Of a stretch of 64,000 bases of DNA, positions 35,027 to 58,963 are shown one piece after another. The position numbers and the translations under genes are program-made. The DNA is from Candidatus Hydrogenedentota bacterium (GTDB lineage: Bacteria; UBA8481; J006). The DNA lies in contig RFFU01000040.1 in NCBI GenBank assembly GCA_003697085.1, positions 1 to 64,000 of the forward strand, written 5' to 3'. A model generated the notes under the pieces. It ran no database searches and was not told the DNA's origin. It saw only the letters and a list, made by a program, of their open reading frames with translations. The stretch's first letter is position 1, and every line of letters begins with the position of its first letter.

Positions 35027-36085
35027 ATGTCGACGCGTCAAACCCACAGGGAAGTCGTGCCGTTCCTGCTTCCCTTCACCGTGATCTTTGTCATTTTCCT
35101 CTTCTTTCCCGCCCTCTACTCCATCTACCTCTCTTTCCGAAAGGCGTCGCTCTATTCGGACCTGACGAACATCTTCACAACGATGAAATATGTGGGGTTT
35201 CAGAACTACATCGATCTCCTTCACGACCGCGATTTCCTCTGGTCGCTCGTAATGACCACGTATTACGGAATTCTGGTTGTTCCGCCGGGCATCTTCGTCT
35301 CATTGGTTCTGGCGGCGTTGCTTTCGAATCGACTTCCGGGGCACAAGATCTTCCGGAGCGCCTTTTTTCTCCCAAACGTTCTCGACCTTTTCGTGGTTTC
35401 CATCGTCTGGACGGCGATCTACGCCCCGAAGTTAGGGGTTCTTGACCAACTCTTTCACGCCTTGAAACTTCCCGTACTTTTCAAACACGGGATTCTCGCC
35501 GATCCCGTCTGGGCTTTGCCGGGGATTGCTCTGATGGTGATCCTGAAAGATTCCGGTTTCGGCATGATCCTTTATCTTGCGGCGATCCAGAATATTCCGC
35601 GGGACGTTTACGAAGCCGCGGACATCGACGGAGCGACGGCGTGGCAGAAGTTCACGAAGATCACCTTTCCGCTTGTCAAGCCCGTCACGCTTCTGCTCAT
35701 CGTCACAGGAATTCTGCGAAGTCTGATGGCGTTTCCCGAGATCTACGCGCTGACGCAAGGCAGGCCCTTTCAGGAGATACCGAACTGGGTGCCGTATTTC
35801 GCCGGGGCGACGTTGGGAATGACGAAGATCGCGGGGTACTATCTCTTTGAAAAGTTTTATCTTTCTTATCAATACGGCTACGCGGCGGCGATGTCGGTCA
35901 TTCTCCTCTTCATCTCCTTGCCGCTCTCCTTCCTTTCCTTCTTTGCCTTGCGGACGGAGGGGCCGTCGGTGGGAGAGATGTGGAGGAAGTGGCGGCGGAG
36001 CCGACGCGGAATCTCGATGGGAAATGCCGAGGGGGAAAGTACATCTCCTTTTGGGGAAGGCCTGAAACCGGGAGAGGTCGGATGA
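35027..36085 (+). CDS. sugar ABC transporter permease, MalF type
   Basis: 352 residues with six membrane segments: about 11-32, 80-105, 115-135, 160-180, 222-240 and 283-305. The cytoplasmic coupling loop EAADIDGATAWQKFTKITFP (from residue 196) is the EAA motif that docks to the ATPase. The C-terminal 40 residues are an extra basic cytoplasmic tail. It is the first gene of the glucan cluster and overlaps the second permease by 4 bases (ATGA). With the binding protein downstream it should import a maltooligosaccharide-like sugar; the substrate is inferred from the neighbours. Confidence 0.92.
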   Translation: MSTRQTHREVVPFLLPFTVIFVIFLFFPALYSIYLSFRKASLYSDLTNIFTTMKYVGFQNYIDLLHDRDFLWSLVMTTYYGILVVPPGIFVSLVLAALLSNRLPGHKIFRSAFFLPNVLDLFVVSIVWTAIYAPKLGVLDQLFHALKLPVLFKHGILADPVWALPGIALMVILKDSGFGMILYLAAIQNIPRDVYEAADIDGATAWQKFTKITFPLVKPVTLLLIVTGILRSLMAFPEIYALTQGRPFQEIPNWVPYFAGATLGMTKIAGYYLFEKFYLSYQYGYAAAMSVILLFISLPLSFLSFFALRTEGPSVGEMWRKWRRSRRGISMGNAEGESTSPFGEGLKPGEVG

Positions 36086-37209
36086 TGTCGGGCTATCGAT
36101 TTCTTCGTATGATCCGCGGGTCGCTATTGGCGGCGATACTTCTCGTGGCAGCCGTCTTCGTCCTCTTTCCCTTTTTCTGGATGCTTTCGACGTCGCTGAA
36201 GACCGAAGGAAGGGGAATGAAATTCGAGTTTCTTCCACGGCGTGTCGCGGAGGTCGGCCCGGTTGAAATTGATACGGCGGGGGTTCGTGTCGGAGAGATT
36301 CAGTTCGATCGAACGACGGTGGATGAAACCGGGGTTCATCCGGCACTGAGGAGCGCGGGGGCGGACGAAGTAATATTCGTCGCCGAGGAAGCGAAGGGGA
36401 AGCGGGTATCAGGAAGATTGTTTCCAAAAGACACGGAAGTCTGGGCGGCGAGGGAGGCGCTGCCAGCGGGGAATTGGAAGATCACATATACGGTGAAGCG
36501 CGGATGGAAGGCCGCCTTTTTCAATCTCTACACCTTCAACAATTACAGGCGCCTTATCAGAAATAAATCTTTTCCTTTCAAGACGTATCTTTTCAACTCC
36601 TTTCTCGTTTCCGTTTCCGCCGCGATCCTAACTGTCATCCTCTGCGCGTTGGCCGCTTACGTTTTCGCGAAGAAGGAGTTTCCGGGGAAGACGGTTCTCT
36701 TCTGGTCTTTCATGGCGGCGATGATGATTCCGGGAATGATGTATATGGTACCGCAATTCGCCATTGTAACTCAGTTCGGATGGATCAACACGCTGCAAGG
36801 CCTGGTTGTTCCGCACCTGGCCAATGTCTTCGGGCTCTTTCTTCTGAAGCAATTCATGGAGGCGATCCCCGACTCGCTGCTCGAGGCGGCTGAGATGGAC
36901 GGTGCGACGGAGACGACGAAATTTCTCAAGATCATCACGCCGCTTTCGATGCCTTCTCTGGCGATCCTTTTTCTTCTGACCTTCATCACGCAGTGGAACA
37001 ATTTCTTTTGGCAGCTGATCGTGAACACTCCTGATTCGCCTTATATCACGCTTCCTTACGGAATCGCCCTCTTCAGGGGCCAGTACGAGACGAAGTACGA
37101 ACTGATGATGGCGGCTTCTTCCTTCTCGATCGTTCCGATCGTGATCCTGTTTCTCTTCACACAGCGGTATCTGATCGAGGGGCTGACCGCGGGAGGTGTT
37201 AAGGAATGA
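36082..37209 (+). CDS. sugar ABC transporter permease, MalG type, with periplasmic insert
   Basis: 375 residues against about 280 for the family. TM1 (about 13-37) ends in FFWMLSTSLK at the usual place, but the expected FNNYRRL block that precedes TM2 comes only at about 152. The intervening 100 or so residues (about 45-148) form an extra, probably periplasmic, beta-rich domain. The remaining segments are normal, with the EAA loop LLEAAEMDGATETTKFLKII at about 271-290. ATG 36082 overlaps the MalF-type stop; the next ATG, 36085, is an alternative. The stop overlaps the binding-protein start (ATGA). Confidence 0.9.
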   Translation: MMSGYRFLRMIRGSLLAAILLVAAVFVLFPFFWMLSTSLKTEGRGMKFEFLPRRVAEVGPVEIDTAGVRVGEIQFDRTTVDETGVHPALRSAGADEVIFVAEEAKGKRVSGRLFPKDTEVWAAREALPAGNWKITYTVKRGWKAAFFNLYTFNNYRRLIRNKSFPFKTYLFNSFLVSVSAAILTVILCALAAYVFAKKEFPGKTVLFWSFMAAMMIPGMMYMVPQFAIVTQFGWINTLQGLVVPHLANVFGLFLLKQFMEAIPDSLLEAAEMDGATETTKFLKIITPLSMPSLAILFLLTFITQWNNFFWQLIVNTPDSPYITLPYGIALFRGQYETKYELMMAASSFSIVPIVILFLFTQRYLIEGLTAGGVKE

Positions 37210-38621
37210 TTAGAGGAACGAATAGAACTCCGGGGATCGCACGGAAGGGAGGAGCCTGTCTGCTTGGGATTCTTTTCCTTTTCTCGGTTGGTTGCGGCGG
37301 CGGCCGGATCGCTCAAGAGAAAGGAACGATCACACTCTGGGAGACCTACAACAACGAGGAACACGATGTTTTTATGGAGATCGTGAAGTCATTCGAGGAA
37401 TGGTACGCGAAGGAGCGCGGAGAAGAGGTTCATGTGCGCGTCAAACGGATCCCCTTTGACCAGCACATTCAAAAGATCAAATTCTCCGCCATTACGCGAA
37501 CGGCTCCGGACATCGTGCGTGTCGATGCGGGAGAACTGATCGATCTCGTTTACGGCCAGATCGTTTATGACTTGAAGGAGATCGATCCGAAGATCGAGGA
37601 ATATCTTTCGACGTTTATGCCGGTGGCGCGGGAATCGGTTCGGATTCCCTTACGCCATCCGGACGGAAAGGTTCGAACGGGCGTCTATGGGATCCCGGAT
37701 CAATTGACCGGGGTTGCGATTTACTACAATCGAACGATGTTCAAGGAAGCGGGGATTCCGTTTCCGCCGCGGACCTTACGGGAGTTGCGGGACGCGGATC
37801 CGCCATGGGATTTCAAGCGGTTCCGGGAGGTCGCGAAGGCCCTGACGAAGCCCGAGCGGAACCAGTACGGCGTGGCGCTCAATTCCTCGCTGTGGTTCAG
37901 TCTGCCCTTTTTCAACGCCTTCGGAGCGGATTTCATCAAGATCGATCCGGACGGCAAGTTCCGCTGCGTTCTCGATTCGGACTCGGGAATAAATGCTCTC
38001 ACGGCGCTCGCTTCGCTCTACTGGGATGGTTCCGAGCCGGGGGCGTGGTTGGCCGGGGCCATCAACCCCGATCGCGGTTTCATCAACAACAAGTACGCGA
38101 TGATCGTTTCCGGTCCGTGGAACCTCAAGACCTTTCGCAAATCGGGAGTCGATTTCGGCGTGACGTTCATTCCGGAGGGGCCGAATCGTCGGGAGATTCC
38201 CGTGCCCGGAGGGGGAACGATCCGCGTGGGAACCTCGACCAATGTCGGCGGCACGGACATGGCGATTCTGAAGACGACGCGCCAGCCCCGATTGTGTTAT
38301 GAATTCCTGAAGTACCTCACGAGGCCGGAAGTGCACGCAAAGTGGTGCAATGCCCTAGGGCAGATTCCCGTCCAGACCTTGGCTGAACCGTTGGTGGATT
38401 TTTCCGGGAACCCGGACCTGAAGGTTTTCGTGGAGCAGATGCGGACGGCGGTCCCGCGCCCGAAGATACCGCGGTACGGGGTATTGGAGGTTTCGATCAT
38501 GGTGCCGCAGATCGAGCGGGCGTTCCGCGCGAGGAATCGCGCCGGTGTTCGTCTCGCTTTGGGGAAAGCGGTCGAGGAGATCGACCGGCGGATTCTCCGG
38601 GACGTTAATGTACCGCGATGA
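37206..38621 (+). CDS. extracellular sugar-binding lipoprotein (family 1 solute-binding protein)
   Basis: 471 residues. The N terminus ends in LFLFSVGC with Cys30 as the probable lipidation site. The mature part is a two-lobed binding protein: GTITLWETYNNEEHD at the first strand, TRTAPDIVRVDAGEL, YGIPDQLTGVAIYYNRTMFKEAGI (hinge region), YAMIVSGPWNLKTFRKSG, and the C-terminal lobe with EFLKYLTRPEVHAKW. It would deliver oligosaccharides to the MalFG-type permeases. ATG 37206 overlaps the upstream stop by 4 bases. No ATPase gene follows, so the transporter probably shares an MsmX-like ATPase encoded elsewhere. Confidence 0.92.
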   Translation: MIRGTNRTPGIARKGGACLLGILFLFSVGCGGGRIAQEKGTITLWETYNNEEHDVFMEIVKSFEEWYAKERGEEVHVRVKRIPFDQHIQKIKFSAITRTAPDIVRVDAGELIDLVYGQIVYDLKEIDPKIEEYLSTFMPVARESVRIPLRHPDGKVRTGVYGIPDQLTGVAIYYNRTMFKEAGIPFPPRTLRELRDADPPWDFKRFREVAKALTKPERNQYGVALNSSLWFSLPFFNAFGADFIKIDPDGKFRCVLDSDSGINALTALASLYWDGSEPGAWLAGAINPDRGFINNKYAMIVSGPWNLKTFRKSGVDFGVTFIPEGPNRREIPVPGGGTIRVGTSTNVGGTDMAILKTTRQPRLCYEFLKYLTRPEVHAKWCNALGQIPVQTLAEPLVDFSGNPDLKVFVEQMRTAVPRPKIPRYGVLEVSIMVPQIERAFRARNRAGVRLALGKAVEEIDRRILRDVNVPR

Positions 38622-40371
38622 GCGGTCGGCTGGGAAGGAAGACCGGCTTCCGTGCCGACGGCGGCGTGCCGGACTGGCTCCCGGGAGCGGGCGTCTCCCG
38701 CGAAATCTGATTCCGTTTCTTTTCGTGATGCTTTTCCTGTTGGAACCGTTCGCTTTTGCGGGAGCGGTTCGAGCCGGCTCGATTCGATTGGAAGGGAACG
38801 TGGACCTTTCAGCGGAGATACGGCGGGACGCCGACCGCGAGTTGGACGACCGCCAGATCGGATTCGAGCGGCCGTTTTACGACAACCGCAAACGCCCTGC
38901 GTACAATCTGGAGTTCTTCGATCCACGGGTCGAGATCCGCGCGTACGCGACGCCGGCGGCGCCGGTTGAGATCTTCGCGAAATTTTTCAATTCCAATGAT
39001 CTTTTTCTCGGCGAGGCACACACGCGTCTGAGGTACACCAAAGGGCGCGACAAGAAGGAGCGGGGGATCGAGTCGTATTTTTTCTACCGGCAAGGGCGAC
39101 TGAACCTGGGCGATCCCGTCGTGACGATTGCCTTCGACCAGTTCGGAAACGGTATTGCGACGGCGTGGTGGTTGGGGCAGGGGGATTTCGCTCCCAAGAA
39201 GGGGCGTTGGTCCGGCGAATTGAATCTCCAGAACAACACGGGCGAATTGAATTCCTTCGGAGAGGACAACGAATTCATCACCGCGAAACTCCGGCATGAC
39301 TACGAGGTGAACGAGGATTGGAATCTGGCCGGCGAACTGCTGTACGCCAGAAAGAACTTCACGGACAGGAATGTGGAGCGGCAGTTCAACGAGGTGTACG
39401 GTTCGGCCTTCACCGTTTCGTGGAAGAATACGAACCTGGCGCTTCAATACAATTTCTCGCAGGCGCAGGAGCTGGGATTTTCGGCTCCGGACAACGGTGT
39501 TTTCGGAATCGATCTCAGAAATCTGATCCTGCTGGATCGGAAGAAGACGGGCCGTTGGGGGCTGAACGCGACCTATGTCGATTTCGGCCGAAACTACCGG
39601 AACTTCATCGGACGAAACGCAAGCACCATCTCCTACGCGCATCGGATCGCCAACGGAGTGGAATCGACGGCGGGGGATGTCAATGATCACGAGTTCTTCG
39701 GGGAACTCTACTGGGACGTACCGAAATACGATATCAATCTGACTTTGAGGCAGACGGACCGATACGGAAGGGAGACGGGACGTCGGCTGGAGCGGCAGCA
39801 GGAAGTGGATTTGAATCTGAAACTGGTGAGACACTTTTCGCTTCGTTCGCTCTATGTAAGGAGACTCTTCGGGCTCGAGGAGATATTGGAGGATCTCGAT
39901 GCGAACCGAATCATCCGAACGCGAAGTATGCGGAGTGACGATTATTATTTGGCTCTGACGATGGTTCGAAAATGGGGACAGGTGAAACTTGACTACCGTC
40001 GCGTGCGGCATCGCGCCCGCGTGCGAACCCATTACGTCGGCGCCGAGGCCACCTACAAGGCGAACAAGAAGCTGACCTTTCTGGCCCGCGGCGCCATGGC
40101 CTTCGTGAGATTGCCGCAAACGACGTGGGCCATCACCACCACCCCGTATGACTTCGGAACGCAGAGGCGGATTAGTTTCGTGGAGCCGTTTTCCCGTCGG
40201 AAGACGCTCTTCGCGCAGATCCAATACCGCCCAAACGACAATTCGCAGATCTTCCTCGAATACGGCAACGGTTTTCATCTCGACAACGACCTTTCGTTGG
40301 ACGGGGATTTTCAGATTCCCGACCGGCATACGGATCATCGAATTTTTATGAAGGCGGAGATGTGGTTCTGA
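38608..40371 (+). CDS. outer-membrane beta-barrel protein, porin-like
   Basis: 588 residues. A long basic n-region precedes a hydrophobic core (about 33-50, NLIPFLFVMLFLLEPFAFAG) and a signal cleavage near VRAGS. The rest is alternating hydrophobic/polar strands with frequent aromatic ends (SYFFYRQGRL, FGRNYRNFIGR, FLEYGNGFHLDND), finishing KAEMWF; a terminal Phe is typical of BamA-assembled barrels. The start at 38608 overlaps the binding-protein gene by 14 bases. I infer a glucan porin from the neighbours; no binding domain is visible. Confidence 0.78.
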   Translation: MYRDERSAGKEDRLPCRRRRAGLAPGSGRLPRNLIPFLFVMLFLLEPFAFAGAVRAGSIRLEGNVDLSAEIRRDADRELDDRQIGFERPFYDNRKRPAYNLEFFDPRVEIRAYATPAAPVEIFAKFFNSNDLFLGEAHTRLRYTKGRDKKERGIESYFFYRQGRLNLGDPVVTIAFDQFGNGIATAWWLGQGDFAPKKGRWSGELNLQNNTGELNSFGEDNEFITAKLRHDYEVNEDWNLAGELLYARKNFTDRNVERQFNEVYGSAFTVSWKNTNLALQYNFSQAQELGFSAPDNGVFGIDLRNLILLDRKKTGRWGLNATYVDFGRNYRNFIGRNASTISYAHRIANGVESTAGDVNDHEFFGELYWDVPKYDINLTLRQTDRYGRETGRRLERQQEVDLNLKLVRHFSLRSLYVRRLFGLEEILEDLDANRIIRTRSMRSDDYYLALTMVRKWGQVKLDYRRVRHRARVRTHYVGAEATYKANKKLTFLARGAMAFVRLPQTTWAITTTPYDFGTQRRISFVEPFSRRKTLFAQIQYRPNDNSQIFLEYGNGFHLDNDLSLDGDFQIPDRHTDHRIFMKAEMWF

Positions 40372-40408
40372 TGGAAGAAAAGACGCGGGAAGGAAGAGGA
40401 AGAGGGTT

Positions 40409-42616
40409 ATGAGACGCGGCGAGGAATCTCGAGAGAAACCGGCCGGGAGGGAGAGACGGCGGCCGGGGCGGAATGTGATTCAAAGCCTCGGCGTCTTTCT
40501 CCTTCTTTCGGGCGTTCTGCTTCTGATCGGTTCGGGGAGGGTGCGAAGCGAGGAGGAAAAGAGCGAACGTGTATTGCCGCCGGCGATGGCGATGCCTTAC
40601 GGAAAAATCCGCTTTCTCTGGGACGACGAGTTCGCGAAGAAGGTGGAGATCGGCGCGGATTTCAACAACTGGAATCCCTCGGCAACGCCGTTGCACCAAG
40701 GGCCCTACAACATCTGGATGACGGAGGTGGACCTCAAGCCGGGGAAGTATTCCTACAAGTTCGTGATCGACGGGCAGTGGGAGTCGGGGGACAATCGGAC
40801 CTTGATCGTGGTGAGGAAGAAGGACGGGACGATCGGGATCAAGGAGACGCGTCCCGCCTCGAACACGCCCTACAATTCGCGGATCTGGTTTGAGGGGAGA
40901 GCCTGGGCGCAGGCGGTTCTGCGGAGGGTTCCGGACGGCGAGCAGGTCGATACGGGGCGCTGGCGGTTCGCTCCGTTCGAGTACAACCTTCTTCCCCGGA
41001 TGTATTTCACGGCGGGGGACAACTTTACGGGAATGGTGGAGATGAATATGAATCAGAGGCGGGATCGGTTCACGACCTTCTTCAACCAGGGCGAGGTGGC
41101 GTTGGAGGAGGATTTCGGACGGTTCTTTCTCTTTCGCCGGCGGCGGGCTTTCACATTCGACAATCCGATGCGCACCTTGGATCGGTTCCGTGACACGTTG
41201 GACGACGAGGTTTATTTCACGACGGAGCAGCGGCCGAAATGGCACAACTTCGGCCGCCGGTTCGATTTCATCACGCGGAATCAATCGGACAGCGATTTCA
41301 CCTTTACCGCGGACGGCTGGCAGGGGTTCGTGTCGGACGTGCATCCGGGAAAATGGAGTCTGTTGGCGTTCGGAGCCGACCAGATGCGCAAGAACGAGGA
41401 TCTTTGGGGAAGCCGAGTGAAGTGGGAGGGGAAGTACTTCACGGTGGGTGGGCATTATCTGATGAACAACCATCAGCGGGGTTTGATTGCGGCGCCGGCC
41501 GGAGGGAATTCCGTGCGGCAGAATGCGGCTTTCACGGATACCGACGGCGGCGTCTTCTTCTATCCCTACATCAATTCGGCGACGGATGACGGCCGTAATT
41601 ATCTCAACTACGATGCCCTTGTCCTCTTCGATCCGAATGCTCCGAACCGGGATCAATGGATGGGATTGGACTTCAAACTCGGCACGGAGAAGCATCATTT
41701 GTTCGGCGAGTGGGAATTTTATCGGAAGGACTGGTCGTACGTGGCGTTCGAGAACGGGGACGGGATGCTTCCGAACGGAGCGGGATTCTTCAACACGAGT
41801 GTCCACAATATCGGCGAGTTTCTCTTTGGAGGCCAGGAGAGAAAACACACGATTCTTTTCGGCGGTGTCTGGAAGCCGTGGGAGGCGTTGGGATTGGAGT
41901 TGGCGCTGAAGGCGGACGACGCCTCGGCGCTGACGCTCGATCAGAACCGCAATCTCGTTCGCACGGATCCCAGTGGAGTGGAGTTCGCGTTTCGGGGAAA
42001 GTACCAGGCCGAGAAGTTCCGCTATGGGGCGGAATTCATCAGGCGAACGGTGCGCGATTTTCCGAACAACACCTTTCAGGCCAACTTCGACAACTTCGAT
42101 TTCGTGGGCGTGGATGTGCTGGGCGCAAACGATCTCTTCCAGTTCAAACAGTTGCTTGTGGCAACTCCGGGACGGTTCACGATCCACCTCGGGCATCGGT
42201 TCCGCAGTTACGATCTCACCGCCGCCACGCTCCAGACGAACGAACTCAAGCTCCGACTGGGCTATCAATTCACGAAACGGCTGGGGCTCGAGGCGGCGGG
42301 GCGGTACAAAAGTTACGATCTTCCCAACGATCCCTCCCTGACTGTTCAACCCGGTGTCCGTGAAAACTTTTTTGCCGGCGGGCTCCGCCTGATCTACCGC
42401 GTCTCGAAATATGTTACTCTGAATGCGGGGTACGGGGTGAATTTCGAGAATGACGAGGATGTGGAATGGGGACAACTCTTCTTTATGCGCGAGGCCCTGG
42501 CGCGAGCGCAACGGCCGCAGTCGCCGACGACCCACGCATTGGATCAGGTGTTGGAGGCGGAGCGGGCCTTGCAGCGCGAACGGCGTTTCGAGTTCAACAT
42601 CGATGCGCGGTTTTGA
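40409..42616 (+). CDS. CBM48 glycogen/starch-binding domain fused to an outer-membrane beta-barrel
   Basis: 735 residues. A signal-like helix spans about 24-44. Residues about 60-145 form a CBM48/AMPK-glycogen-binding type module: KIRFLWDDEFAKKVEIGADF, NNWNP, GPYNIWMTEVDLKPGKYSYK and FVIDGQWESGDN. From about 160 to the end the sequence is barrel-like: paired strands with aromatic girdles (FNQGEVALEEDFGRFFLF, HHLFGEWEFYRKDWSYVAF, KLRLGYQFTKRLGLEAAGRY), ending DARF. I infer an outer-membrane protein that captures alpha-glucan on its N-terminal domain, which would sit at one side of the barrel. ATG 40409 follows GAGGAAGAGG. The gene lies 37 bp after the other barrel. Confidence 0.8.
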   Translation: MRRGEESREKPAGRERRRPGRNVIQSLGVFLLLSGVLLLIGSGRVRSEEEKSERVLPPAMAMPYGKIRFLWDDEFAKKVEIGADFNNWNPSATPLHQGPYNIWMTEVDLKPGKYSYKFVIDGQWESGDNRTLIVVRKKDGTIGIKETRPASNTPYNSRIWFEGRAWAQAVLRRVPDGEQVDTGRWRFAPFEYNLLPRMYFTAGDNFTGMVEMNMNQRRDRFTTFFNQGEVALEEDFGRFFLFRRRRAFTFDNPMRTLDRFRDTLDDEVYFTTEQRPKWHNFGRRFDFITRNQSDSDFTFTADGWQGFVSDVHPGKWSLLAFGADQMRKNEDLWGSRVKWEGKYFTVGGHYLMNNHQRGLIAAPAGGNSVRQNAAFTDTDGGVFFYPYINSATDDGRNYLNYDALVLFDPNAPNRDQWMGLDFKLGTEKHHLFGEWEFYRKDWSYVAFENGDGMLPNGAGFFNTSVHNIGEFLFGGQERKHTILFGGVWKPWEALGLELALKADDASALTLDQNRNLVRTDPSGVEFAFRGKYQAEKFRYGAEFIRRTVRDFPNNTFQANFDNFDFVGVDVLGANDLFQFKQLLVATPGRFTIHLGHRFRSYDLTAATLQTNELKLRLGYQFTKRLGLEAAGRYKSYDLPNDPSLTVQPGVRENFFAGGLRLIYRVSKYVTLNAGYGVNFENDEDVEWGQLFFMREALARAQRPQSPTTHALDQVLEAERALQRERRFEFNIDARF

Positions 42617-42727
42617 GGCGGACGGGTGTCCCGCTTTGTTTTCCTTCCCGTTTTCTTTTCTTTCTCCGCGTGCGCTGACATTTTCAGGGAGGCGACGAGA
42701 AAATTTGAAGTTGGGAGGTTGGAGCGG

Positions 42728-43198
42728 ATGACGAGGACGACTCATAAAAAGGGACGGTTTTCGGCGGAGCGTTTTGTGACGCTGGGGATGTTTACGTTGT
42801 TTCTCCTCTTGGCGTCCGGTTGCCTGGTGCGCGAAAGGCTGGAATCGGCCACCGTCGCGCAGAATCCCAAGGGCGTGCTTTTCGTTTACGACGATCTTTC
42901 GGCGAACGAGGTCTGGCTCGCCGGCCAGTTCAACCACTGGGCGGCGAAGAAGGGAGATCGGTTTCTCATCGAGATGAAGCAAGGAGAGGACGGATTATGG
43001 CGCGCTGTCATTCCGTATCGCGAATACATCCGCGATCCCGAGTTCGATGAACTGGATGACGATATCTATGTCCAGCATGGACGGCGCTATCAGTACAAGT
43101 TCGTGATTGATCAGAACCGTTGGGTCACGGACCCGAACAACCGGAGCCTGAAGAAGAACCCGGACGGGACCGAGAATTCCCTGCTGGTGGCGCCTTGA
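42728..43198 (+). CDS. CBM48-containing lipoprotein
   Basis: 156 residues. LFLLLASGC gives a lipobox with Cys32. Residues about 45-150 are a single CBM48-like module: GVLFVYDDLSANEVWLAGQF, NHW, GLWRAVIPY, YQYKFVIDQNRWVTDPNN. It resembles the N-terminal module of the barrel fusion upstream and the first modules of the giant protein. It is probably a cell-surface or periplasmic glucan-binding lipoprotein comparable in role, not in sequence, to SusE/F. ATG 42728 with GGAGCGG upstream is chosen over a longer frame that lacks the lipobox position. The subtilase gene starts directly after its stop. Confidence 0.85.
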   Translation: MTRTTHKKGRFSAERFVTLGMFTLFLLLASGCLVRERLESATVAQNPKGVLFVYDDLSANEVWLAGQFNHWAAKKGDRFLIEMKQGEDGLWRAVIPYREYIRDPEFDELDDDIYVQHGRRYQYKFVIDQNRWVTDPNNRSLKKNPDGTENSLLVAP

Positions 43199-45640
43199 AT
43201 GGATTGTGAGACTGGTTTTGTTTCCGGGCACCGAAGGCGGCGAGAGAAGGTGCGCGTCGTCTTGTTTGCCGGGCTGTGTCTTCTTCTTTTGTGCGCGGCG
43301 GCGATGCTTGTGGAAGATCGGGTGGCGGGCGAGGTTGTTCCGGCGGCGGTAGTCCGGGCGGCGGCGGTAGGCCCGTCGGCCGATGGAGAGGTCATCGTCG
43401 TTCCGCGCGACGAAGCCGCCTTGTCGGTGCTCGAGACGCTCGGGTATTCGATCAAGAGGCGCCTCTCGCCGCTCAACGCCGTTCTGTTGGCGGTTCCGGT
43501 GGGAAAGACGACAGAAGAAGCCGTCGCGGAACTGGCTGTTCGGGCGGACCTCGTGGACGTAAGGCGGAACCGTCTCTATTCGCGGGCGGTAACTCCGAAT
43601 GATCCGCAGTTCTCGAATCAATGGCAGTTCGATTCGATCGTGGCGGAGCCGGCGTGGGACATCGATACGGGAACGGCTTCGGAGACGATCGCGATCATCG
43701 ATGACGGAATCGACACGGATCACGTCGATCTGGCGGCGAGGCTCGTCTTTGTGAAGGGCGCCGATGTCGTCAACAACGATGACGATCCTTCCCAATTCGT
43801 CAACATTCACGGAACGGAGGTGGCCGGGATGGCGGCCGCGATCACGAACAACGGTCAAGATGCCGCCGGGGTGGATTGGAACGCAAAAATCATGCCGATC
43901 CAGGTTTTTGCCGATGTCGCGGGATCGAGCGCAACGAGTGCGGATATTGCCGCAGGAATCATCAAGGCGGTCGAGAATCACGCGAGTGTGATCAATCTTT
44001 CCTTGATGGGATTTCTCGATTTTGCTCCGGACGATACGATCGAAGATGCGATCGCCTATGCCGTGAACGCCGGTATTCCGGTGGTGGCCGCCGCCGGGAA
44101 TTTCAACAGTGGCGGGACGACGTGGCCGGAGACGGTACCCATCCATCGATTTCCAGGGAGTTCGTTTCTCACGATTTCGGTTGGGGCCACGAACCGTGCG
44201 GATTCCTGGGCCAATTTTTCCGCCTACGTTCGTCCGGACGAAGCATCCTATCAGACGTGGATCAATCCCGGCGGGACCCTTCTCGGAGATTTGGGGATTC
44301 AGGAAGGGCAGTTGACGACGCTCGATCTTGTCGCTCCGGGCGAAAGTGTCGTGACGTTAACGGCGGGTGTTGGCGTGGCGACCGTGAATGGGACCTCGTT
44401 TTCGGCTCCTTTGGTTTTCGGAGCCGTGACACTGGTGAAGCATATCCGGAGCGAGTATTCGCCGGAGAACCTACGCGAGATTCTCCGGGTCACCGCGCGC
44501 GACATCGGGCCGGGAGGGTACGATGCGCCAACCGGCGCCGGTGTCCTCGATCTCAACAAACTTCTCGGGACGGCTCTTTATGAATCGCTCTATCCCTTTT
44601 CGGACGACACGCGGACGATCCGAGCGGATTCCTTTTCCGCGGCTGTTCCGGGAGACACCGGCAATGCTCTTTCGGCGGCAAATGGGCGAGTCGGGCGGCG
44701 TTCTCTCGAGATCACGGGAAACAACGTTTACACGGGATACGACGGCGCTCTGGGAGCGGAGAGCGGGACGATCGAATTCTACGTTTGGTTCGACGCAACT
44801 CAACCGAACGATACGGCTTACGTGGTTACTCAAAAGGGGAATCTGGCGAAAGGGGGGGGGAGCTTGGATCTCATCTATCGTTCGGACGGACATCTGGAGT
44901 ATCGGTTGGCGGATACGGTGACGCTTGTCAGCGCCGATACGCTTTTCGCCCAGCGTTGGTACCACGTCGCGATGACGTATGGCGACAGCGGAGCCTTTCT
45001 TTATGTGAACGGAGAATCGCAGGCGTCGTCGGGGGTCACCGGCGGCCCGCCGGTTCAAGACACGGTCTTTTTCGGCGCACCGGGTTCCGTGGGCTCCTCG
45101 GCGGTATGCCGAATCGATTCGCTCAGATTTTCGCGAGGGCAGCGCCTGATCTTTCCGAGCGCTCTGGCGGTGACGGTCTGGAGCCAGAAGGCCACGACCA
45201 ACGCGCTCGATGCCGTCAGTGTTCGGTGGACGGCGTTGCGGAACGAGACATCGCCCGTGACAATCTCGATCTATGCCGACGAGAACCGCGAGGGATTCGA
45301 TGGGATCCCCCTGGCGACGGGGTTGGCGAACGATGGTCAGGAGACGGTAAGCCTTGCGGCTCTCGCCTCGACGGGAAAGGAGTATTTTCTCTACGTGACG
45401 GCGGAGGATCTTGTTTACGGTAACGAGAGCGTCTCGGCCTATTCGGACACAGCCTTCAAGGCTTTTACGGCTTTATCGGATTTGTTGACCGCGACTCCGG
45501 GGCGGTCGGGAGAGTGCCGGTTGGCCACCGTTACCGGCGCGCGGGGAGTGAAGTGGTTGAGATGGTTTCGGGATCGGGCGATGAGCCTTCCCTTCGGCCG
45601 TTGGCTCGTCGGTTTTTACTATCGTGTATGGGGCTGTTGA
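43199..45640 (+). CDS. secreted subtilisin-like serine protease (S8) with LamG domain and CFI-box-like C terminus
   Basis: 813 residues. Signal sequence about 19-43. A propeptide-like region (about 60-130) precedes the S8 domain (about 136-450). The catalytic triad is Asp168 (AIIDDGID), His204 (VNIHGTEVAGM) and Ser400 (VNGTSFSAP). A LamG/concanavalin-like domain follows (about 490-660: GTIEFYVWF, WYHVAMTYGDSGAFLYVNGE), then a beta-sandwich (about 670-765). The C terminus CRLATVTG...WLRWFRDRAMSLPFGRWLVGFYY resembles a CFI-box anchor. It may process the surface amylases or degrade glucan-bound protein; this is inference from location. Confidence 0.88.
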   Translation: MDCETGFVSGHRRRREKVRVVLFAGLCLLLLCAAAMLVEDRVAGEVVPAAVVRAAAVGPSADGEVIVVPRDEAALSVLETLGYSIKRRLSPLNAVLLAVPVGKTTEEAVAELAVRADLVDVRRNRLYSRAVTPNDPQFSNQWQFDSIVAEPAWDIDTGTASETIAIIDDGIDTDHVDLAARLVFVKGADVVNNDDDPSQFVNIHGTEVAGMAAAITNNGQDAAGVDWNAKIMPIQVFADVAGSSATSADIAAGIIKAVENHASVINLSLMGFLDFAPDDTIEDAIAYAVNAGIPVVAAAGNFNSGGTTWPETVPIHRFPGSSFLTISVGATNRADSWANFSAYVRPDEASYQTWINPGGTLLGDLGIQEGQLTTLDLVAPGESVVTLTAGVGVATVNGTSFSAPLVFGAVTLVKHIRSEYSPENLREILRVTARDIGPGGYDAPTGAGVLDLNKLLGTALYESLYPFSDDTRTIRADSFSAAVPGDTGNALSAANGRVGRRSLEITGNNVYTGYDGALGAESGTIEFYVWFDATQPNDTAYVVTQKGNLAKGGGSLDLIYRSDGHLEYRLADTVTLVSADTLFAQRWYHVAMTYGDSGAFLYVNGESQASSGVTGGPPVQDTVFFGAPGSVGSSAVCRIDSLRFSRGQRLIFPSALAVTVWSQKATTNALDAVSVRWTALRNETSPVTISIYADENREGFDGIPLATGLANDGQETVSLAALASTGKEYFLYVTAEDLVYGNESVSAYSDTAFKAFTALSDLLTATPGRSGECRLATVTGARGVKWLRWFRDRAMSLPFGRWLVGFYYRVWGC

Positions 45641-45652
45641 CGGGCGCGGCCG

Positions 45653-47041
45653 GTGAGTAAGAGAGTGCATCGGGACGGGCACGGTTCGTCCGTGTGGCGT
45701 GCCGGAAGAGAGATTGTTTACCAGATCTTTCCGGATCGCTGGAGGCGTTCGAAGAGTTCGCCGGAAGTTCTGCCACGAGGGAGGAGGTGGCGGGGGAGAC
45801 CGGTGATCGTGACGAGCAACGCCCGGCTTCTCGGTTCCCGGCGCAACGGCCAGCGCACCTTTTACGGCGGAGACCTGCAGGGAATCACGGATTCGCTGGA
45901 TTATCTTTCGAGTCTCGGAGTCACGATCCTGTATCTGAACCCGATCTTCGAGGGGAGAAGTTGTCACCGATACGACACGGTCGATCATTTGCGGATCGAC
46001 CCGATGCTGGGAACGCGCGAGGATTTCGAGGTGCTGTGTCGAGAGGCGAAGAGCCGGGGGATGAAGATCGTTCTGGACGGCGTCTTCAATCACACGTCGC
46101 TGGATCACCCCTGGTACCGATCATCGAGCCTGCGCCGGCGATATTATCTGATGAAGAACGAGACCGAAACTATGACGTGGATGAACGGCGGAGGGTTACC
46201 GAAACTGGATACGGAAAATCCGCGGGTGTTGAGCGCTATCCGGAAAACGATCGAGGCGTGGCCGGAGGCGGACGGCTGGAGGCTGGACGCGGCGCATCTT
46301 CTTCCGGAGAGGTGTTTGCGGGAGATCCGCGGGGCAGCCGGGACGCGGAAGATCGTGATCGAGGATTGGGAACATTCGGCTCATTATTTCCGGAAGGGAT
46401 TGGCAGATTCCGTCACGAACTTTCTTTTTCGGGACGCGATGGAGAGGTATTTCATCGAGGATCTGGCTCCAGAGACGTTGGTGGAGCGGCTTCGGGTCTG
46501 GATCGAGGGGTATCCTCGAGCGCAACTACCTTGGGTGTGGAATTTTCTCGACAATCATGACACGGCGCGTCTGTTGGGGAGGGTGGGGCGTGAGCGGTTT
46601 TTTCGAGCGGCGGTTTTCCTCTTCACTTTACCGGGAACGCCGATGGTTTTTCACGGGGACGAGGTCGGATTGGGCGGCGGTGGAGCGCGGAAGAACCACG
46701 ACGCGGGGCGGCAGGTGATGCCGTGGAACGAGCGGTGGTGGGATCGGGGTATCTTGGAGCATTTTCGAGCATTGGCGTCTTTCCGGAAGCGGTTTGGACC
46801 GGCGACGCGGGGGCGGTTCCGGGTTCTGGCGGCGGAGAATGGCAGCCGGACGGTAGTGTGGGAGATGGAGTGGGGTGGATATCGAATCTATTCGGCCGTG
46901 AATGATGGGTATCGGGGATCGCGGGTTCCAGGTATGGACGGAAGACGGGTGAGACTGAAACCGGGCGAGTGGATAGTAAGGGGCGAGGATCGAGAGGGGG
47001 AGATGCGGTTGGGATCGGAGCAAATTTCCTACTCAACGTAA
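45653..47041 (+). CDS. GH13 alpha-amylase family enzyme, probably intracellular
   Basis: 462 residues. (beta/alpha)8 catalytic domain with all four GH13 regions: DGVFNH at 142-147, GWRLDAA with nucleophile Asp212, VIEDWE with acid/base Glu237, and FLDNHD with Asp303. There is also YGGDLQGITDSLDYLSSLGV near 71-90, as in neopullulanase/cyclomaltodextrinase-type enzymes. A C-terminal beta domain begins near 390. No signal peptide, so it should act in the cytoplasm on imported maltooligosaccharides. The GTG start is 12 bp after the protease gene, with only a weak ribosome-binding site. Confidence 0.9.
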   Translation: MSKRVHRDGHGSSVWRAGREIVYQIFPDRWRRSKSSPEVLPRGRRWRGRPVIVTSNARLLGSRRNGQRTFYGGDLQGITDSLDYLSSLGVTILYLNPIFEGRSCHRYDTVDHLRIDPMLGTREDFEVLCREAKSRGMKIVLDGVFNHTSLDHPWYRSSSLRRRYYLMKNETETMTWMNGGGLPKLDTENPRVLSAIRKTIEAWPEADGWRLDAAHLLPERCLREIRGAAGTRKIVIEDWEHSAHYFRKGLADSVTNFLFRDAMERYFIEDLAPETLVERLRVWIEGYPRAQLPWVWNFLDNHDTARLLGRVGRERFFRAAVFLFTLPGTPMVFHGDEVGLGGGGARKNHDAGRQVMPWNERWWDRGILEHFRALASFRKRFGPATRGRFRVLAAENGSRTVVWEMEWGGYRIYSAVNDGYRGSRVPGMDGRRVRLKPGEWIVRGEDREGEMRLGSEQISYST

Positions 47042-47091: not shown

Positions 47092-47195
47092 TAAGGCGTA
47101 ACGATACGAAAGAGAAGAATCGGAAAGAAAAAAGGAACGCAGGAGGAAAAGGAAGCGGTGGTACTGGCGCGACCGTTGAAGAGGGACCGGATGCT

Positions 47196-50100: not shown

Positions 50101-53100
50101 CCGGCGGGATCGCGGAAGTCAGTTTCCCGTGGTCGTTGATTGGTTCGCCGTCCCGATTCAAGATTCTCGTCTATGCAATGAACAACGCCTCGTCAAACCA
50201 TAACATTTACTCGATCATTCCGGTCCAGAATCGAACCGGCCCTTCTTCCCAAAAACTGGTGAATTACTTCGAGTTCCCGTCCTCGCAATCGACGGTTCCG
50301 AACACGCCGAAGTATTATAAGACGACGGTTGTGTGGCCGGCGGCCTCCAAAGGGGTGACTTCCTTCACGCCCTTGATCGACGGGGTGAAGGACCCCGGCT
50401 GGGGCGACGTACCGACGGCCACGAGCGCCTCGTACCGCCAGCCGTTCCCGGGGCCGGCGGACACTCCGATCGAGGTACCCCCCGGCGGAATTTGCCGCGA
50501 CGTCTATGTGACAAACGACGCGCAGTGGCTCTATATCGGGTGGGAAGCCTTCAGTGATCCGTACCAATTGGAGACGGATAACACCGAGCAGAATGCCGAT
50601 TATGGCTTCTTCGTGACGGACACGGGCGTTTGGGGATCGCCGGTGGATCCTTGGCGATGGTACGATGCGAACCGAAACTTCAATGCGACCCACCGTACGA
50701 CGGGATACGGCGTCAACGTTGTTGCAAATGGGACGGTCGGGTTTCAGGAATCGAACTTTTCGAGTGCCTTCAAGTACACGACGGTTGATGGCGTCAACTG
50801 GGAGAACGGAGTGACGATGACGATCGACGAGGACTGGTCCGCCGACTTCAACGATTCCGGCCAGGGGTGGGGAGAACTGAGAATACCGTTATCGGATATT
50901 CGGGCGGACATCGGGCCGGGAGACACGATCGCCATCGTTCATTTCGGGCGTCATTCCGCTGCAAAGCCTGGGGTGAACGATGTCACGCCGTTCGACGGAG
51001 CGGCGGCGAGCAACTGGGCGGACAACAATGCCGTCCACGAGATGGGGGACACGGCGGTTTTCGTCTATGTGATTCAGCCGGGGGTGATCGACGCCTTTCA
51101 CATACCCGATTCCGCTCCCGTACTGGGCCGTGGTTTGATGCGGCAGCCGGCGTCTCCCAATACCTCCGACAACATCGAACTCTTCCTCCGGGCCAATCCC
51201 GAGGGCGTGGCGACGACGGTCGATCTTATCTATTCGACGGACACGTGGGCGAGCAGTACGAGTACCTCGATGGCGGTGGCCTACGCCAGTGGAGGAGCGG
51301 ATTTCTGGTCTGTGACGCTTCCCTCGATCCCCGCCGGCACGATCTTGCGTTATTACTTCAAGGCGCAGTCGGATGTGATGACGACGTACGTCTACGGTTA
51401 TGACACGCAATCGTACACGACTTCGGTTCAAGCGACGGCGCAAGCGAACGCATTCTCCGTTTTGCTCGGGAACACTCCCCCGACCACTCCTACCGAGGTG
51501 ACACTTTTGCCGACGTCGCCTTCGACAAACGACACACTGGTGGCAACCGCCTCCGGCGCTTCCGACTCAGACGTGGATGTCGGGGTGGACACGCTGATCT
51601 ATCGTTTCCGCTGGTACAAGGGGGAGGTGTTCCAGTTCGAGACGTTCGATTCGGTGCCGCCTTATACCTCGCAAGTCGTTCCGGCTTCCACTGCCTCGGG
51701 CGAGACGTGGTTCGTGAAGGTTGCCGCGGGGGACGGGGAAGACACATCGAGCGAGATCACGAGCGCGGTACGCCTGATCTCGACGTTGGCCGTCTGGCCC
51801 GCTCCCTTGCACGACCGTGTCAACTCCGCGCGGATCGTCACCAGTGTCAGCGGAGGGAAGCAGGTGAGAGAGTGGGTTTGGAAGGACAAGGACGGCGACG
51901 TCCGCTCGGGCCGAAGTGATCTCGACTTGAAGGAAGTGCGGATTCAAGCGGATACCGATTACATCTATTTCCTCTTACGGCTCGGGACCTTCTCGATCGA
52001 CAAACCATTTATCGCGATCGCGGTCGATACGAGCCTGGATGCTTCAGGGGGAACGGAGATGGGGGATCAGACGGCGCTTCTTCTCGGAGGCGGTTTTGCC
52101 ACGCCCGCGCTGAAATTCGAACGAATGATCGCGATTCACGCGGTTTCGAGCGGGAGTCTTGCGGTGGAATTGGATACAGGGGCGGGGGTTCCTGATTGGG
52201 GAACGCCCCGTTCCGGCTACCTTTTGAATGTACGGCGCGAAGCGGGAACGATCGAGGTGCGGTTGGCCCGCTCGGATCTTCTGCTTAAAGGAATCTGTAC
52301 GGCTCGGTTTGCCGTGGCGACCTTCGACAACGTCGTGGGGTCGGCGGCGGCGATCGATGCTACGAAGGATTACAGCGGCAACGATGCGTTCGACGCCGTC
52401 TCAATGCCCGCGTTTTCGTCGAACGATGCGGACTTTTCGATGTCAGCCTGGGATGAAGATCTCTCCGACAACGACCTCGATTACTGGTTCCAACTTTCCT
52501 TTGCGGACACGATTCTCGAGGCGAACGATTCCCCCTCGAGTACGCCCGGAATGCTTCCGGCAACGGGAGACAGCGAGACGACCAACCCTCCGTTTTTCAG
52601 TTGGGGGCAGCCGGATGATTTGGGGACGAACGATACGGTCATTGCGTACATCTTCGAGTTGGGAGACTCGGGGGCGGACTTCGAGCAAGCCGTAACGTAC
52701 AGGGTGATAACGAGCGCTCGGAATTACACTCCGCCGACCTTTCTCACGGACAGCACCTACCATTCGTGGCTTGTCCGAGCCGTGGATCGAAGCGGGCAGA
52801 TCGGAACGGCGGTCGTCCAGACCTATTTCCAAGAGAATGCCACTTCGATTCTTGTCACGGCTCCCGATGACAAGCAGAACCTCAATAACCTTGGAGCGAG
52901 GAATGGAGACGAAGTTGCGGTGACCTCGATCATTTGGACCTGGCCGGCGGCGATTCATTCGGAAAGTGCTCCGATCGATTCGTACATCATCGAGATCGAT
53001 ACCTCCACGGCGTTCACGAAACCGATCCTTGTGGATACGCTGCCCGGTTCGCAGAGGAGTTACACGTATGCGGGAGCGGTGCGAGGCGAGGTCTATTACG

Positions 53101-56100
53101 CCAGACTCAAAGCGGTTGATACGGGAGGTTTCACCGGCACATCGTCGCCTTCGGACGGAATCTATGTCAGCCGGAGGTACGCCAACGGTGACTCGACCGA
53201 TTGGGCCTCGGCGGGCGGAATGGCTCCGGACACCATCAACACGCCGGCGGCTCCGTCGTGGGAAGGAATCTGGATGGATTCGGTGACGGACAACCGAACG
53301 GACGACGCCGGAAACGCGTCCCGAGATCTGAAGGAGTTCCACGTGACCGCCGATTCCTTCAACCTTTATCTCCTAATGACTTTTCGAGATTTCACGAACG
53401 ATGCCATCATCCAGGTCGCGGTTTCGACGGACAATTCCTCCGACAAGCGTGTTTACGAAGGGCGAAGCGTTTATGCGGAGGATTCCTATACGTCGGTGGA
53501 GGGAGCCTGGGAACGAATGATACGGGTGAGGACGGGAAACGACGATGTTTACACCTTAAACACGGCCTTTGCCGGCCAAGCGGCGAAATATACCGAGAAT
53601 GTGTCGCAGAGAATGGTGGAGGTGGCGGTGCCGCTTTCGCGGTTGGGAGGTCGGGAGAAGATCTTGGGAAACACGGTAGGGTTCACGGTGGCGACCTTCA
53701 TTAATTCAGCGGGAAGCGTCGGGCAGAACGGAGCGAACAATTCGAACATCGTCGATGTAATCACGACGAACAACGGCACGGGGACGTGGGGCGAGGTGAG
53801 CGATCGGGACGTCGATTTCCTCTTGAATGTGACGTTCGATGGCGAAGGGAGGGTTACGGCGATCTCGGCCGATACCGTCTCGAGCACGATTCCTGACGAA
53901 CCGACGCAGACGGGAGCCGCTGCTTCTTCAAACTTTGATCTCATCTTCTACAATCTCTTCGTCGATCGCTTTCTTTCTGGGCGGAGTGACAATCCTCCTT
54001 CCGATCTGGATATGACCGGCGGCGATCTCGAGGGTATCGCGGATTCTTTCACCTATTTCAACAAGATGGGGGTCACCTGCGTGTATCTTTCGCCGATCAT
54101 GGATTTCGGCGGCGGGGTTTGGGGATACAATCAGAGCGATCTGTATCGTCTCCAATGGAGTTTTGGTTCGCCGAGTGCGCCGCGGAATGGAACGCTGGAT
54201 TTCGTCGATTTCGTCAAACGCGCCCGCCATCACAATCTCAAAGTGGGTTTCGACTGGGTTCCGGGACAGGTATATAACGGGCGAACCGTTTCGAATCATC
54301 CGGAACTCTTCGAGGGAAAGCGATTCGGCGGCGAGGCGGTGCGGCAGGAATCGGTCGAGGCGCGGCAGTTCTTCTCGGACCATTCGCTTTTCTGGGCGGC
54401 GCTGGGGTCGTCGGCGTATCGTGTCGATAATCCCAAATTCTACCCAGATGATTACACGACCGGTTTGCCTTTCTTTGCTTACACGCGTGAGTTTTGGGAC
54501 AAGTACGTTCCCGACCTGTACACCTTTGGAGAGGTGCCGGACAACGAGGGAGTGGTGGGGGCGTTTTGTAAGGACGGGCAGAGGCTCACGGGGATGCTTG
54601 ACTTTCCGATGATGTTCGGATTGCAGCAGTGGGCCGCCGGAAACAAGAATGCCAGCGATTTCAAGACACAGGATATCGAAGGAAAGGAGCCGAGTTACCA
54701 AGGAGCCGTGAAGGCGTTGATGGCGACTCTTATCGAAAATCACGATCATAGTCGGACTTATCATCAAGTCGGCGGAGGTCCGGATCTGGACGGATCGAAG
54801 GATCCGGCGATCATGGCGAACATTCAGTTGGCGTATCTCTTTGCCGGCGCGCACAGTCACAATCCGGTGATCTGGTACGGCGACGAGGTCCCCATTACGG
54901 GATGGAAGGATTACACCTATCCGGGGTTCACCTATACGACGAGCACGAGCAAATTCGGGAATACCAGGGCCTTCCCGTGGGATTTCCCGGACGGGACGTG
55001 GTTGCGAGACAATTTTCGGGCGATCTTCACCGCACGGAACATCTTCCGCGCGCTTCGGACGGACAATGCCGGGCGCTTTTTCGATATTCCGGATCTCAAT
55101 GTGATGACGATGCAGAGATTCACTGGGGGAGCGGGGGATTACGAGAAGGTGGTGGCGGTGATCAACAACGCCAATGTGGACAAGAATGTTACGATTGCCA
55201 CGGGCGACAGCAACAAGTTCTTCCGCGATTGGCTCAACCCCGCCGTGACGGGGACCACGGATGCTTCCGGAAATCTCGTCGGCTGGAATGTGCCGTCGAA
55301 CTGGGGGTTTTATCTTGTGCGCGGGGGATTCGGACAGAGGCAGTTGCACGTGGATGCGGGAATGAGCGGTGTGATCGTCTCGATAGACAATACTTCTTCC
55401 TGGACTTGTGTGACGGGGGACGACGGGAGTTGCACGATCACGCGGATTCTCGTCAACGACGAAGGCAATGGGAACTTTAATTCGTGGGATCGCACCTTGC
55501 GGGCCTGGAAGAAAGGGTACAAGGAGTACGTCGGGACGTACACCTTCGGTTCCTCGAACGGAGTGGCGGCGGTTGCCGATGACACGACGATTACGTTGCA
55601 AGCGGATGATGGCGTTCCCCCGGCGGCTCCGCAGGGCCTTTCGGCCCAGCCGCGGGACCGAGCCGCGTTCCTGACCTGGGAGAAGAACAATGAAAGCGAT
55701 TTCGAGTCGTACAAGGTCTATCGATCCAAAACGCCCAACGATCCCTCACCGACCTTGATCGCCGAAACACTTCGTCCGTTCCTTTACGATAACGATCTCG
55801 ATAACTTTCTGACCAACGGCGATACCTATTATTACAAGGTTCGCGCGATGGACTGGAACGAGAACTTGTCCGGGTTTTCGAACGAGGTGGCGGTGGTTCC
55901 GGGAAAGTACAACGTGAAGTTTTATTTGGAACTTGAAGGTTCGGGACTGAGCGGAGTGCAATACGCCATGATTGCAGGGAACCATGACGCCCTCGGCGCC
56001 TGGACTCCAGTTCAGATGACACAGGTCGATACCACGCTCTGGATGATAGAGACTGAGATGGATCCGACCTCGATGCCGGAGTACAAATATGTTGTTCAAA

Positions 56101-57479: not shown

Positions 57480-58567
57480 GCCGATCTGTGTTCCGGATCG
57501 CGGTAGCGATAGCGCTCTTTCTCTGCGCGGCCCCTTCGACTTATGCTCAGACGGCGCGTGACACGTGGGCGCAGGTGACAAAGACGATCGTGGTCCAACC
57601 GGGCTTGGACGTCTCTTGTTGGAAGGATGCCGGAAGAAGTCAGATTACGGAAGGGCCGATGACGATGACCGCGGTCGGCGATGGTACCTATGAGGCGATT
57701 ATCGGCCTTCAGCGGGGACAAAAATACAACTATCTCTTTTTTGCCAATGCCGGATTTCCCGCGCCCGGCGGTTTGATGGATTTCAACGAATATTACGATG
57801 TCGTACCCACAAGCGGTTTCATCCGGGCTTCGACAAACGGCGTTACGGTGAACGATACCGTTTCAGCATATTACGGATCCGTAGGGCTCACCTTCGATGC
57901 GCGGCGAATTCTCTCCGTTCCAACGACGATTCCTCCGGGAGACACGCTTTGGGTCTTCAACAATTTCGGGGAAACTCCGGGCATCGTCTCTTCCTTTTCG
58001 GCGTTTCCGGAGGGAGAAACGAAAATTCGGCTCGTTTGGGGAGATCCTTATGGGTTTTGGGGTCAGAATGGAGAGGCCTTCAAGGCGGCGGATGTTTTGG
58101 CGGGAGGGCAGTTTCTGATCTACCGGAGTCTGAGTGAGTCCGGTCCGTTTCGATTGATAGCCGCGTTGGACGGCAAGGAGAACACCTTCGTGGACGACAG
58201 CGGAACGACGGGACTTGCCATGGCCGAGACCTATTACTACGTCATCCGGTGTCGCGACGCGTACGAGGGAACGAACCTGGCGACCGATTCTTTTCCTACA
58301 CTTTCCAGTGACTCTTCGAATGTGGTTCATGCCACGACCAGCGGGCCGCTCATCGGGTTCTTTGTGGTTCAGGCGGCGGATTGGCATGTTATTGAAAGAA
58401 CCCGTGGTCGTGTCTTTCTCTCGCCTCCGGAAGCTCCTCCGTGGGGAAGGAAGTATGAGGCTCGAATGGTGCGGGTTTATCTCCCTCCTGGAGATTTGCG
58501 AAAAAACGCGTTTATTGATTCAGGATCATCGAACATGGAGAAAAGAAAAAGAGGAAGGGAAGAATAA
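57476..58567 (+). CDS. small secreted FnIII-containing protein
   Basis: 363 residues. Signal peptide about 1-24, cleavage near TYAQT. The N-terminal domain (about 30-130) has the beta pattern of a starch-binding/E-set module (MTAVGDGTYEAIIGLQRGQK, YNYLFFANAG). An FnIII-like domain (about 180-290) has KIRLVWGDPYGFWG and AETYYYVIRCRDAY with the closing Tyr pattern. The C-terminal 60 residues are basic with no anchor. ATG 57476 overlaps the giant protein stop (ATGA), so the two are probably made together. It could be an accessory subunit for the amylase; that is inference. Confidence 0.75.
   Translation: MSRSVFRIAVAIALFLCAAPSTYAQTARDTWAQVTKTIVVQPGLDVSCWKDAGRSQITEGPMTMTAVGDGTYEAIIGLQRGQKYNYLFFANAGFPAPGGLMDFNEYYDVVPTSGFIRASTNGVTVNDTVSAYYGSVGLTFDARRILSVPTTIPPGDTLWVFNNFGETPGIVSSFSAFPEGETKIRLVWGDPYGFWGQNGEAFKAADVLAGGQFLIYRSLSESGPFRLIAALDGKENTFVDDSGTTGLAMAETYYYVIRCRDAYEGTNLATDSFPTLSSDSSNVVHATTSGPLIGFFVVQAADWHVIERTRGRVFLSPPEAPPWGRKYEARMVRVYLPPGDLRKNAFIDSGSSNMEKRKRGREE

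Positions 58568-58886: not shown

Positions 58887-58963
<77 letters not shown>

Follow-up and report, generated by a model that had tools for sequence, protein, structure and literature searches.

The stretch analysed here (the window, 64,000 nucleotides of contig RFFU01000040.1 from a Candidatus Hydrogenedentota bacterium, assembly GCA_003697085.1) holds a locus that probably serves the capture and import of alpha-glucans. A sequence-only reading had listed nine or ten plus-strand genes in a row; ten open reading frames (ORFs), all co-oriented on the plus strand, fill positions 35027-58567, with product families matched by Pfam. The first two encode permease A (MalF/UgpA-like, 35027-36085; BPD_transp_1 at 6e-12, NCBIfam UgpA/GlcT/MalF below cut-off) and permease B (MalG-like, 36082-37209, in an ORF that opens at 35980), which also matches BPD_transp_1 and has a beta-rich insert of about 100 amino acids in its first periplasmic loop. 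A sugar-binding lipoprotein follows (37206-38621; SBP_bac_8/SBP_bac_1, lipobox FSVGC), so that the two MalF/MalG-type BPD_transp_1 permeases and the binding protein by which a MalEFGK2-type importer is recognised are all present. Next come two predicted outer-membrane beta-barrels of no known family, each ending in Phe: barrel1 (P0004, 38545-40371, with the true start probably 3' of 38545) and barrel2, or the CBM48-barrel (P0005, 40409-42616), in which a CBM48 at about residues 66-136 precedes the barrel. The remaining genes encode a CBM48 lipoprotein (P0006, 42626-43198, lipobox LASGC), a secreted S8 subtilase (P0007, 43199-45640), a cytoplasmic GH13 enzyme of the neopullulanase / cyclomaltodextrinase / maltodextrin glucosidase type in which no signal peptide was seen (P0008, 45653-47041), a giant secreted GH13 protein of 3,471 amino acids (P0009, 47064-57479) and a small secreted protein (P0010, 57410-58567, likely start 57476).

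Pfam places an Alpha-amylase domain on both P0008 and P0009, and in each the catalytic Asp/Glu/Asp motifs can be read, and align to solved enzymes (GWRLD, IVIEDWE and FLDNHD in P0008; YRVD, TFGEV and IENHD in P0009). The GH13 domain of P0009, at about residues 2290-2720, is accompanied by Ig-like and weak CBM48-like modules and by Pfam matches to CBM_20, LTD and fn3. CBM48-like modules had been claimed for at least three products; CBM48/CBM20-type modules are indeed clear in P0005, P0006 and P0009, and weak in P0010 (3.9 bits). The CBM48-barrel exceeds the Pfam cut-offs of both AMPK1_CBM (38.4 bits, cut-off 26.8) and CBM_48 (27.3 bits, cut-off 22.4). The lipoprotein scores 22.0 bits against CBM_48, 0.4 under the same cut-off, and 75.8 bits against a custom CBM48 profile, made for this analysis, that itself included the lipoprotein. 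All 17 barrel2 relatives have a Pfam CBM48 match, and the AMPK-aligned Trp and Lys positions (W88 and K117), which are glucan contact residues in AMPK, are invariant in 17/17 CBM48-barrels. A CBM48 match in a Fibrobacter proteome (PMC6851124) proved unrelated, as it concerns GH9 cellulases.

The small secreted protein P0010 is related to the N-terminal part of a 902-amino-acid secreted CBM20/CBM48 protein in a Lindowbacteria locus, and may be a shortened copy of it; it finishes in basic sequence unrelated to that counterpart. The subtilase matches Peptidase_S8 and carries a Laminin_G_3 domain and a degenerate CFI-box-CTERM-like tail that falls below the family cut-off. The secreted P0011 encoded upstream (32746-34674) has a similar tail, which leads into a hydrophobic segment and a cluster of Arg residues, and the two tails are a possible surface-sorting signal.

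The short or negative gaps noted from the sequence hold up: counted from their likely starts (36082, 37206 and 57476), permease B, the binding protein and the last gene each overlap the gene before by 4 bases, and the remaining gaps measure 37, 9, 0, 12 and 22 bases. A sigma-70-like promoter match (TTGACA-17-AATGAT, 10/12, a consensus match only) lies at 34896-34924 on the plus strand, about 100 bases 5' of the first start codon. Between the operon and the upstream gene sits a strong, bidirectional terminator-like hairpin of the intrinsic type, with a 13-pair stem (34692-34724). Four weak terminator-like sites occur inside 35000-54900, against 23.1 expected from shuffling. Promoter, hairpin, few internal terminators and near-zero gaps fit a single transcription unit. 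Directly beyond the operon end are tRNA-Glu (58638-58712) and tRNA-Pro (58887-58963), both on the minus strand.

Could the ten genes instead be two or three unrelated neighbouring operons for transport, protease and amylase? Neither the S8 protease nor the giant GH13 protein belongs to the conserved core in other phyla, as such a division would have it, but the gaps and the scarcity of internal terminators speak against one, and so does the sister genome (G001), which belongs to the same taxonomic order and is the only other genome compared from the window's phylum. Its contig C29 (locus L013) carries permease A, permease B, binding protein, barrel1, CBM48-barrel, CBM48 lipoprotein, S8 protease and GH13 in the same order as the window. 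Protein identity across this eight-gene block is 42-68%, the syntenic S8 protease orthologue being 42% identical. Because the eight-gene order is kept there, we rejected chance adjacency; judged by this comparison the window's gene order is not chance, and separate operons are very improbable.

The set also recurs as a unit further afield: Lindowbacteria, Eisenbacteria and Elusimicrobia have it together with MalFG and, in many cases, amylases. Absence of the set from relatives had been named as what would refute the sequence-only reading, and this check did not refute it. In Candidatus Lindowbacteria RIFCSPLOWO2_12_FULL_62_27 (G030), one stretch contains a multi-CBM48 array protein, MalK, two GGDEF proteins, permease A, permease B and the binding protein, followed by barrel1, the CBM48-barrel, a PorV/UPF0164-like protein and the CBM48 lipoprotein. 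In a second Lindowbacteria-phylum genome (G061) the transport and barrel genes are split over two contigs. A barrel1 profile found 24 positive genomes among 386 sampled, nearly all with a single copy, and these matches and the named-host loci gave, with the window left out, 31 distinct loci. Immediately downstream of barrel1 comes the CBM48-barrel in 29/29 testable loci (the other two end at a contig edge), and a CBM48 lipoprotein or small multi-CBM48 protein is usually next. Apart from the window's own phylum, at least six named phyla have this three-gene core, its named hosts being Lindowbacteria, Eisenbacteria, Krumholzibacteria, WOR-3 (Caldifarciminota), Elusimicrobiota and a metagenome-assembled genome labelled Spirochaetota. 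CBM48-only matches in Nitrospira, Planctomycetes and others were set aside, as no barrel of the barrel1 or barrel2 families was found there. In a barrel1 tree the window pair and the Lindowbacteria pair cluster together, with support (86/91) that is not decisive.

We modelled both barrels with AlphaFold2 from alignments of 16 (P0004) and 17 (P0005) relatives. Both were predicted as beta-barrels, in line with the two outer-membrane barrels read from the sequence: P0004 with about 24 strands, counted from the listed strands (predicted local distance difference test, pLDDT, 72.5), and P0005 with about 22 strands and a CBM48 sandwich ahead of the barrel (pLDDT 69.1). Outer-membrane barrels usually end with an aromatic residue, and nearly all relatives of both barrels do so. 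That these barrels belong to families other than those of the Bacteroidota starch system was borne out: sequence searches of Pfam, NCBIfam and the PDB were uninformative over the barrel parts of either family (the sole Pfam match over a barrel part, among members of both, was one weak Porin_4 match), no PDB entry is related to barrel1 in sequence, and neither barrel matches the TonB plug (PF07715). In a fold search the best solved neighbours were ushers for barrel1 (Z 17.5) and, for the CBM48-barrel, TonB-dependent barrels (Z 16.5); we read these, at about 10% identity, as a generic large-barrel likeness and not as homology. A profile alignment of barrel1 with barrel2 (hhalign, 97.7%, E 1.8e-12, 200 columns) suggests that the two are old paralogues. 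However, outer-membrane barrels often resemble one another, and we do not use this likeness as an argument.

Both ends of outer-membrane barrels lie in the periplasm, and the CBM48 of barrel2 precedes the first strand; it should therefore be periplasmic or lumenal, and more likely serves to retain the glucan or pass it on than to capture it at the surface. The CBM48-barrel of the sister genome bears four CBM48 copies, and with two to four copies in some relatives a periplasmic string of CBM48s would be the simpler picture. A second module points the same way. In the Lindowbacteria-phylum orthologues of permease B (L014 6814-8190 and L042 877-2250) the first periplasmic loop contains a full CBM48, scoring 87.6 bits against the profile built here, in which the L014 copy was included. 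This loop, which comes after the first membrane helix, is periplasmic by homology to MalG. Because the Lindowbacteria permease bears its CBM48 in this loop, at least one CBM48 of the system seems to act on the periplasmic side. The insert in the window's permease B is beta-rich but degenerate by comparison. Among the loci inspected, such inserts are confined to the window, its sister and the Lindowbacteria-phylum genomes, in agreement with the barrel1 tree.

Conserved synteny of the CBM48-barrel with GH13 and MalFG-type genes had been named as a check on the sequence-only reading, and both are enriched near the core. Compared with 20 control regions from the same set of sampled genomes, GH13 or GH57 genes occur near 15/31 core loci vs 2/20 controls (Fisher test, p=0.004), and MalF/MalG-type permeases near 11-12/31 vs 1/20 (p about 0.01). 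Short contigs in the test set work against both associations. CBM48-GH57 proteins adjoin the importer in three loci (L163, L168 and L051, the last also with CBM20), and CBM48-GH13 proteins occur in L167 and in both Elusimicrobia loci.

A third neighbour raises a different reading, in which the barrel pair serves export or surface display, with the CBM48-array and giant proteins as possible cargo; small maltodextrins would then enter through other porins, and the ABC (ATP-binding cassette) importer would simply be adjacent. A PorV/UPF0164-like gene is found in 20/31 core loci vs 2/20 controls; the relatives' loci also yield weak PorV/PorP-like and FlgD_ig/CHU_C matches, some of the large secreted proteins that flank the core having C-terminal domains of the latter types, and the best fold matches of barrel1 are ushers, which are secretion barrels. 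The usher matches, however, cover the shared barrel only (root-mean-square deviation 4-5 A, about 10% identity), and other usher domains are not predicted. The PorV-like gene is absent from the locus in both the window and the sister genome. A glucan-binding module fused to the barrel also suits a glucan path better than protein export, and we consider export unlikely. For type IX secretion as such the signs are mixed: P0009 and P0010 showed no sorting domain and the window locus has no PorV-like gene; the relatives give the weak matches named above. Three loci encode, immediately 5' of their PorV-like and barrel1 genes, proteins of about 1,780-1,800 amino acids (L163 11619-17024, L164 3202-8553 and L168 2754-8102), perhaps counterparts of the window's giant protein. 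The L164 protein, the sole one scanned, has Glucodextran_C and FlgD-type Ig domains.

Candidates for the importer's ATPase lie elsewhere in the window genome (G000): four long matches to MalK, with 52-54% identity to the Lindowbacteria MalK. On contig C20, two GGDEF (diguanylate cyclase) genes come after MalK, and a divergently oriented CBM48-array protein runs off the contig. Contig C18 encodes a near-identical CBM48 array fused to GH13, together with a pullulanase-like GH13 with a C-terminal CBM48. Since the arrays are near-identical and the C20 copy is cut by the contig end, C18 and C20 are probably adjacent in the genome. The sister genome also has a MalK-GGDEF-GGDEF block with a divergent CBM48 array, and the arrangement of MalK and two GGDEF genes beside a CBM48-array protein is found in three genomes of two phyla (L017 5687-9880 on G000:C20, L022 957-5113 on G001:C183 and L014 9121-13191 in G030). 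MalK lies within the transport and envelope stretch in one of the two Lindowbacteria-phylum genomes; in the other, an ATPase-like match near 14690-15814 of G061:C169 falls inside an open frame of striking length, 13,870 codons. Because Lindowbacteria join the MalK-GGDEF block to the transporter genes, we infer that the window locus and the MalK-GGDEF locus belong to one system, in which a sugar importer is perhaps tied to cyclic di-GMP signalling.

Taken together, the locus probably encodes a TonB-independent system for the capture and import of an alpha-glucan (starch, glycogen, pullulan or maltodextrin), Sus-like in function (Sus being the starch utilisation system of Bacteroidota) but with non-homologous outer-membrane parts. 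From the gene content, the families, the conservation of the block and the predicted barrels, we infer the following path. The giant secreted GH13 protein, with the CBM48-array GH13 and pullulanase-like proteins of the second locus, would bind and cut the polymer, and the subtilase may strip protein or mature surface proteins. Oligosaccharides would then pass the outer membrane through the paired barrel1 and CBM48-barrel. On the periplasmic side, as the barrel topology suggests, the CBM48 at the barrel N-terminus and the lipoprotein would retain the glucan and pass it to the binding lipoprotein, such that fairly long glucans would enter the periplasm and be held there. The MalFG-type permease would import them, powered by a MalK from elsewhere in the genome; in Lindowbacteria the permease would bring its own CBM48-type domain in the periplasmic loop. 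Hydrolysis would be completed by the cytoplasmic neopullulanase-like GH13.

Several points weigh against this. No MalK is encoded in the window locus, and the claim that the locus covers every step was in that respect overstated. The solved relatives of the binding protein include maltose/acarbose-binding proteins but also binders of arabino-oligosaccharides and other sugars, and a CBM48-type domain is also found in a non-starch protein, a ferulic acid esterase. The barrel models are of moderate confidence and match generic outer-membrane barrels only. Two of the 20 controls contain GH13 as well, and one of these shares its contig with a test locus. Expression of the system, glucan binding and transport are putative. 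Finally, about half of the related loci, several of them on short contigs, have no GH13 or GH57 in the available stretch. This last point, and the CBM48-type domains in many proteins of uncultured phyla outside the barrel block, would also suit a tethering role, in which the CBM48 modules link the outer membrane to the cell's own alpha-glucan or to another polymer, for envelope architecture or storage-glycan export rather than feeding. However, the MalFG and binding-protein genes and the cytoplasmic hydrolase indicate import and catabolism, and GH13/GH57 are enriched over control regions; tethering is improbable.

In phyla without SusCD and maltoporins, the outer-membrane uptake of polysaccharide breakdown products is mostly guesswork; in Latescibacteria it has been attributed to "non-specific porins" (PMC4454575). 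The alpha-glucan import system proposed here offers conserved candidates: two undescribed barrel families, always paired and coupled to a module of the starch-binding type, which many lineages combine with alpha-glucan enzymes and a MalFG importer. In at least seven phyla the barrel block can mark alpha-glucan use for annotation, and the mechanism is testable. The sequence-only reading knew of no described equivalent, and we found no description of this system in open-licence PubMed Central papers (subscription papers and preprints being outside reach). More tentatively, and with some doubt on our part, the block of barrel1, CBM48-barrel and CBM48 lipoprotein could stand beside SusCD and maltoporins as a third type of outer-membrane importer for glycans, independent of TonB and spread across many uncultured phyla, with a periplasmic CBM48 relay from channel to CBM48-bearing MalG-like permease and long chains entering the periplasm uncut.

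Among known systems, the locus resembles Sus (SusCDEFG, SusA/B) in its surface GH13, starch-binding lipoprotein, outer-membrane barrel and neopullulanase-type GH13. The functional parallel drawn from the sequence is supported, with the correction that the barrel's CBM48 should face the periplasm or lumen. Unlike Sus, the locus has barrels without a TonB plug or Pfam family, an ABC importer at the inner membrane, and CBM48 where Sus has the SusE/F modules. SusD (PF07980) had no match in the four genomes tested (G000, G001, G030 and G061; the Bacteroides control was positive), and TonB-plug proteins number two in the window genome, both on other contigs, and none in the Lindowbacteria-phylum genomes. 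With no SusD and no plug in the barrels, we rejected a Sus relative, as the sequence-only reading had done. The enterobacterial maltose regulon (LamB-MalEFGK2-MalS-MalZ) shares the MalF/MalG-like permeases, the sugar-binding protein, a candidate MalK-type ATPase and a MalZ/neopullulanase-like GH13. A maltoporin relative was rejected in turn, as LamB (PF02264) had no match in the window genome (the E. coli control was positive); two larger barrels, one with CBM48, stand in its place, the MalK candidates are encoded apart, and in Lindowbacteria a CBM48 lies within the MalG-like permease. TonB-dependent transporters and chaperone ushers share only the fold of large barrels (Z about 16-17), the window barrels having no predicted plug or usher domains. 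The barrel and the lipoprotein carry a CBM48 of the AMPK beta / isoamylase type (the glycogen-binding domain), with the AMPK-aligned Trp/Lys/Trp positions kept, but its fusion partners here are a barrel of the outer membrane and a lipoprotein, and in relatives also an ABC permease. As a polysaccharide-utilisation locus this one is a variation on an already-known kind, whereas its outer-membrane parts may represent a new kind of importer.

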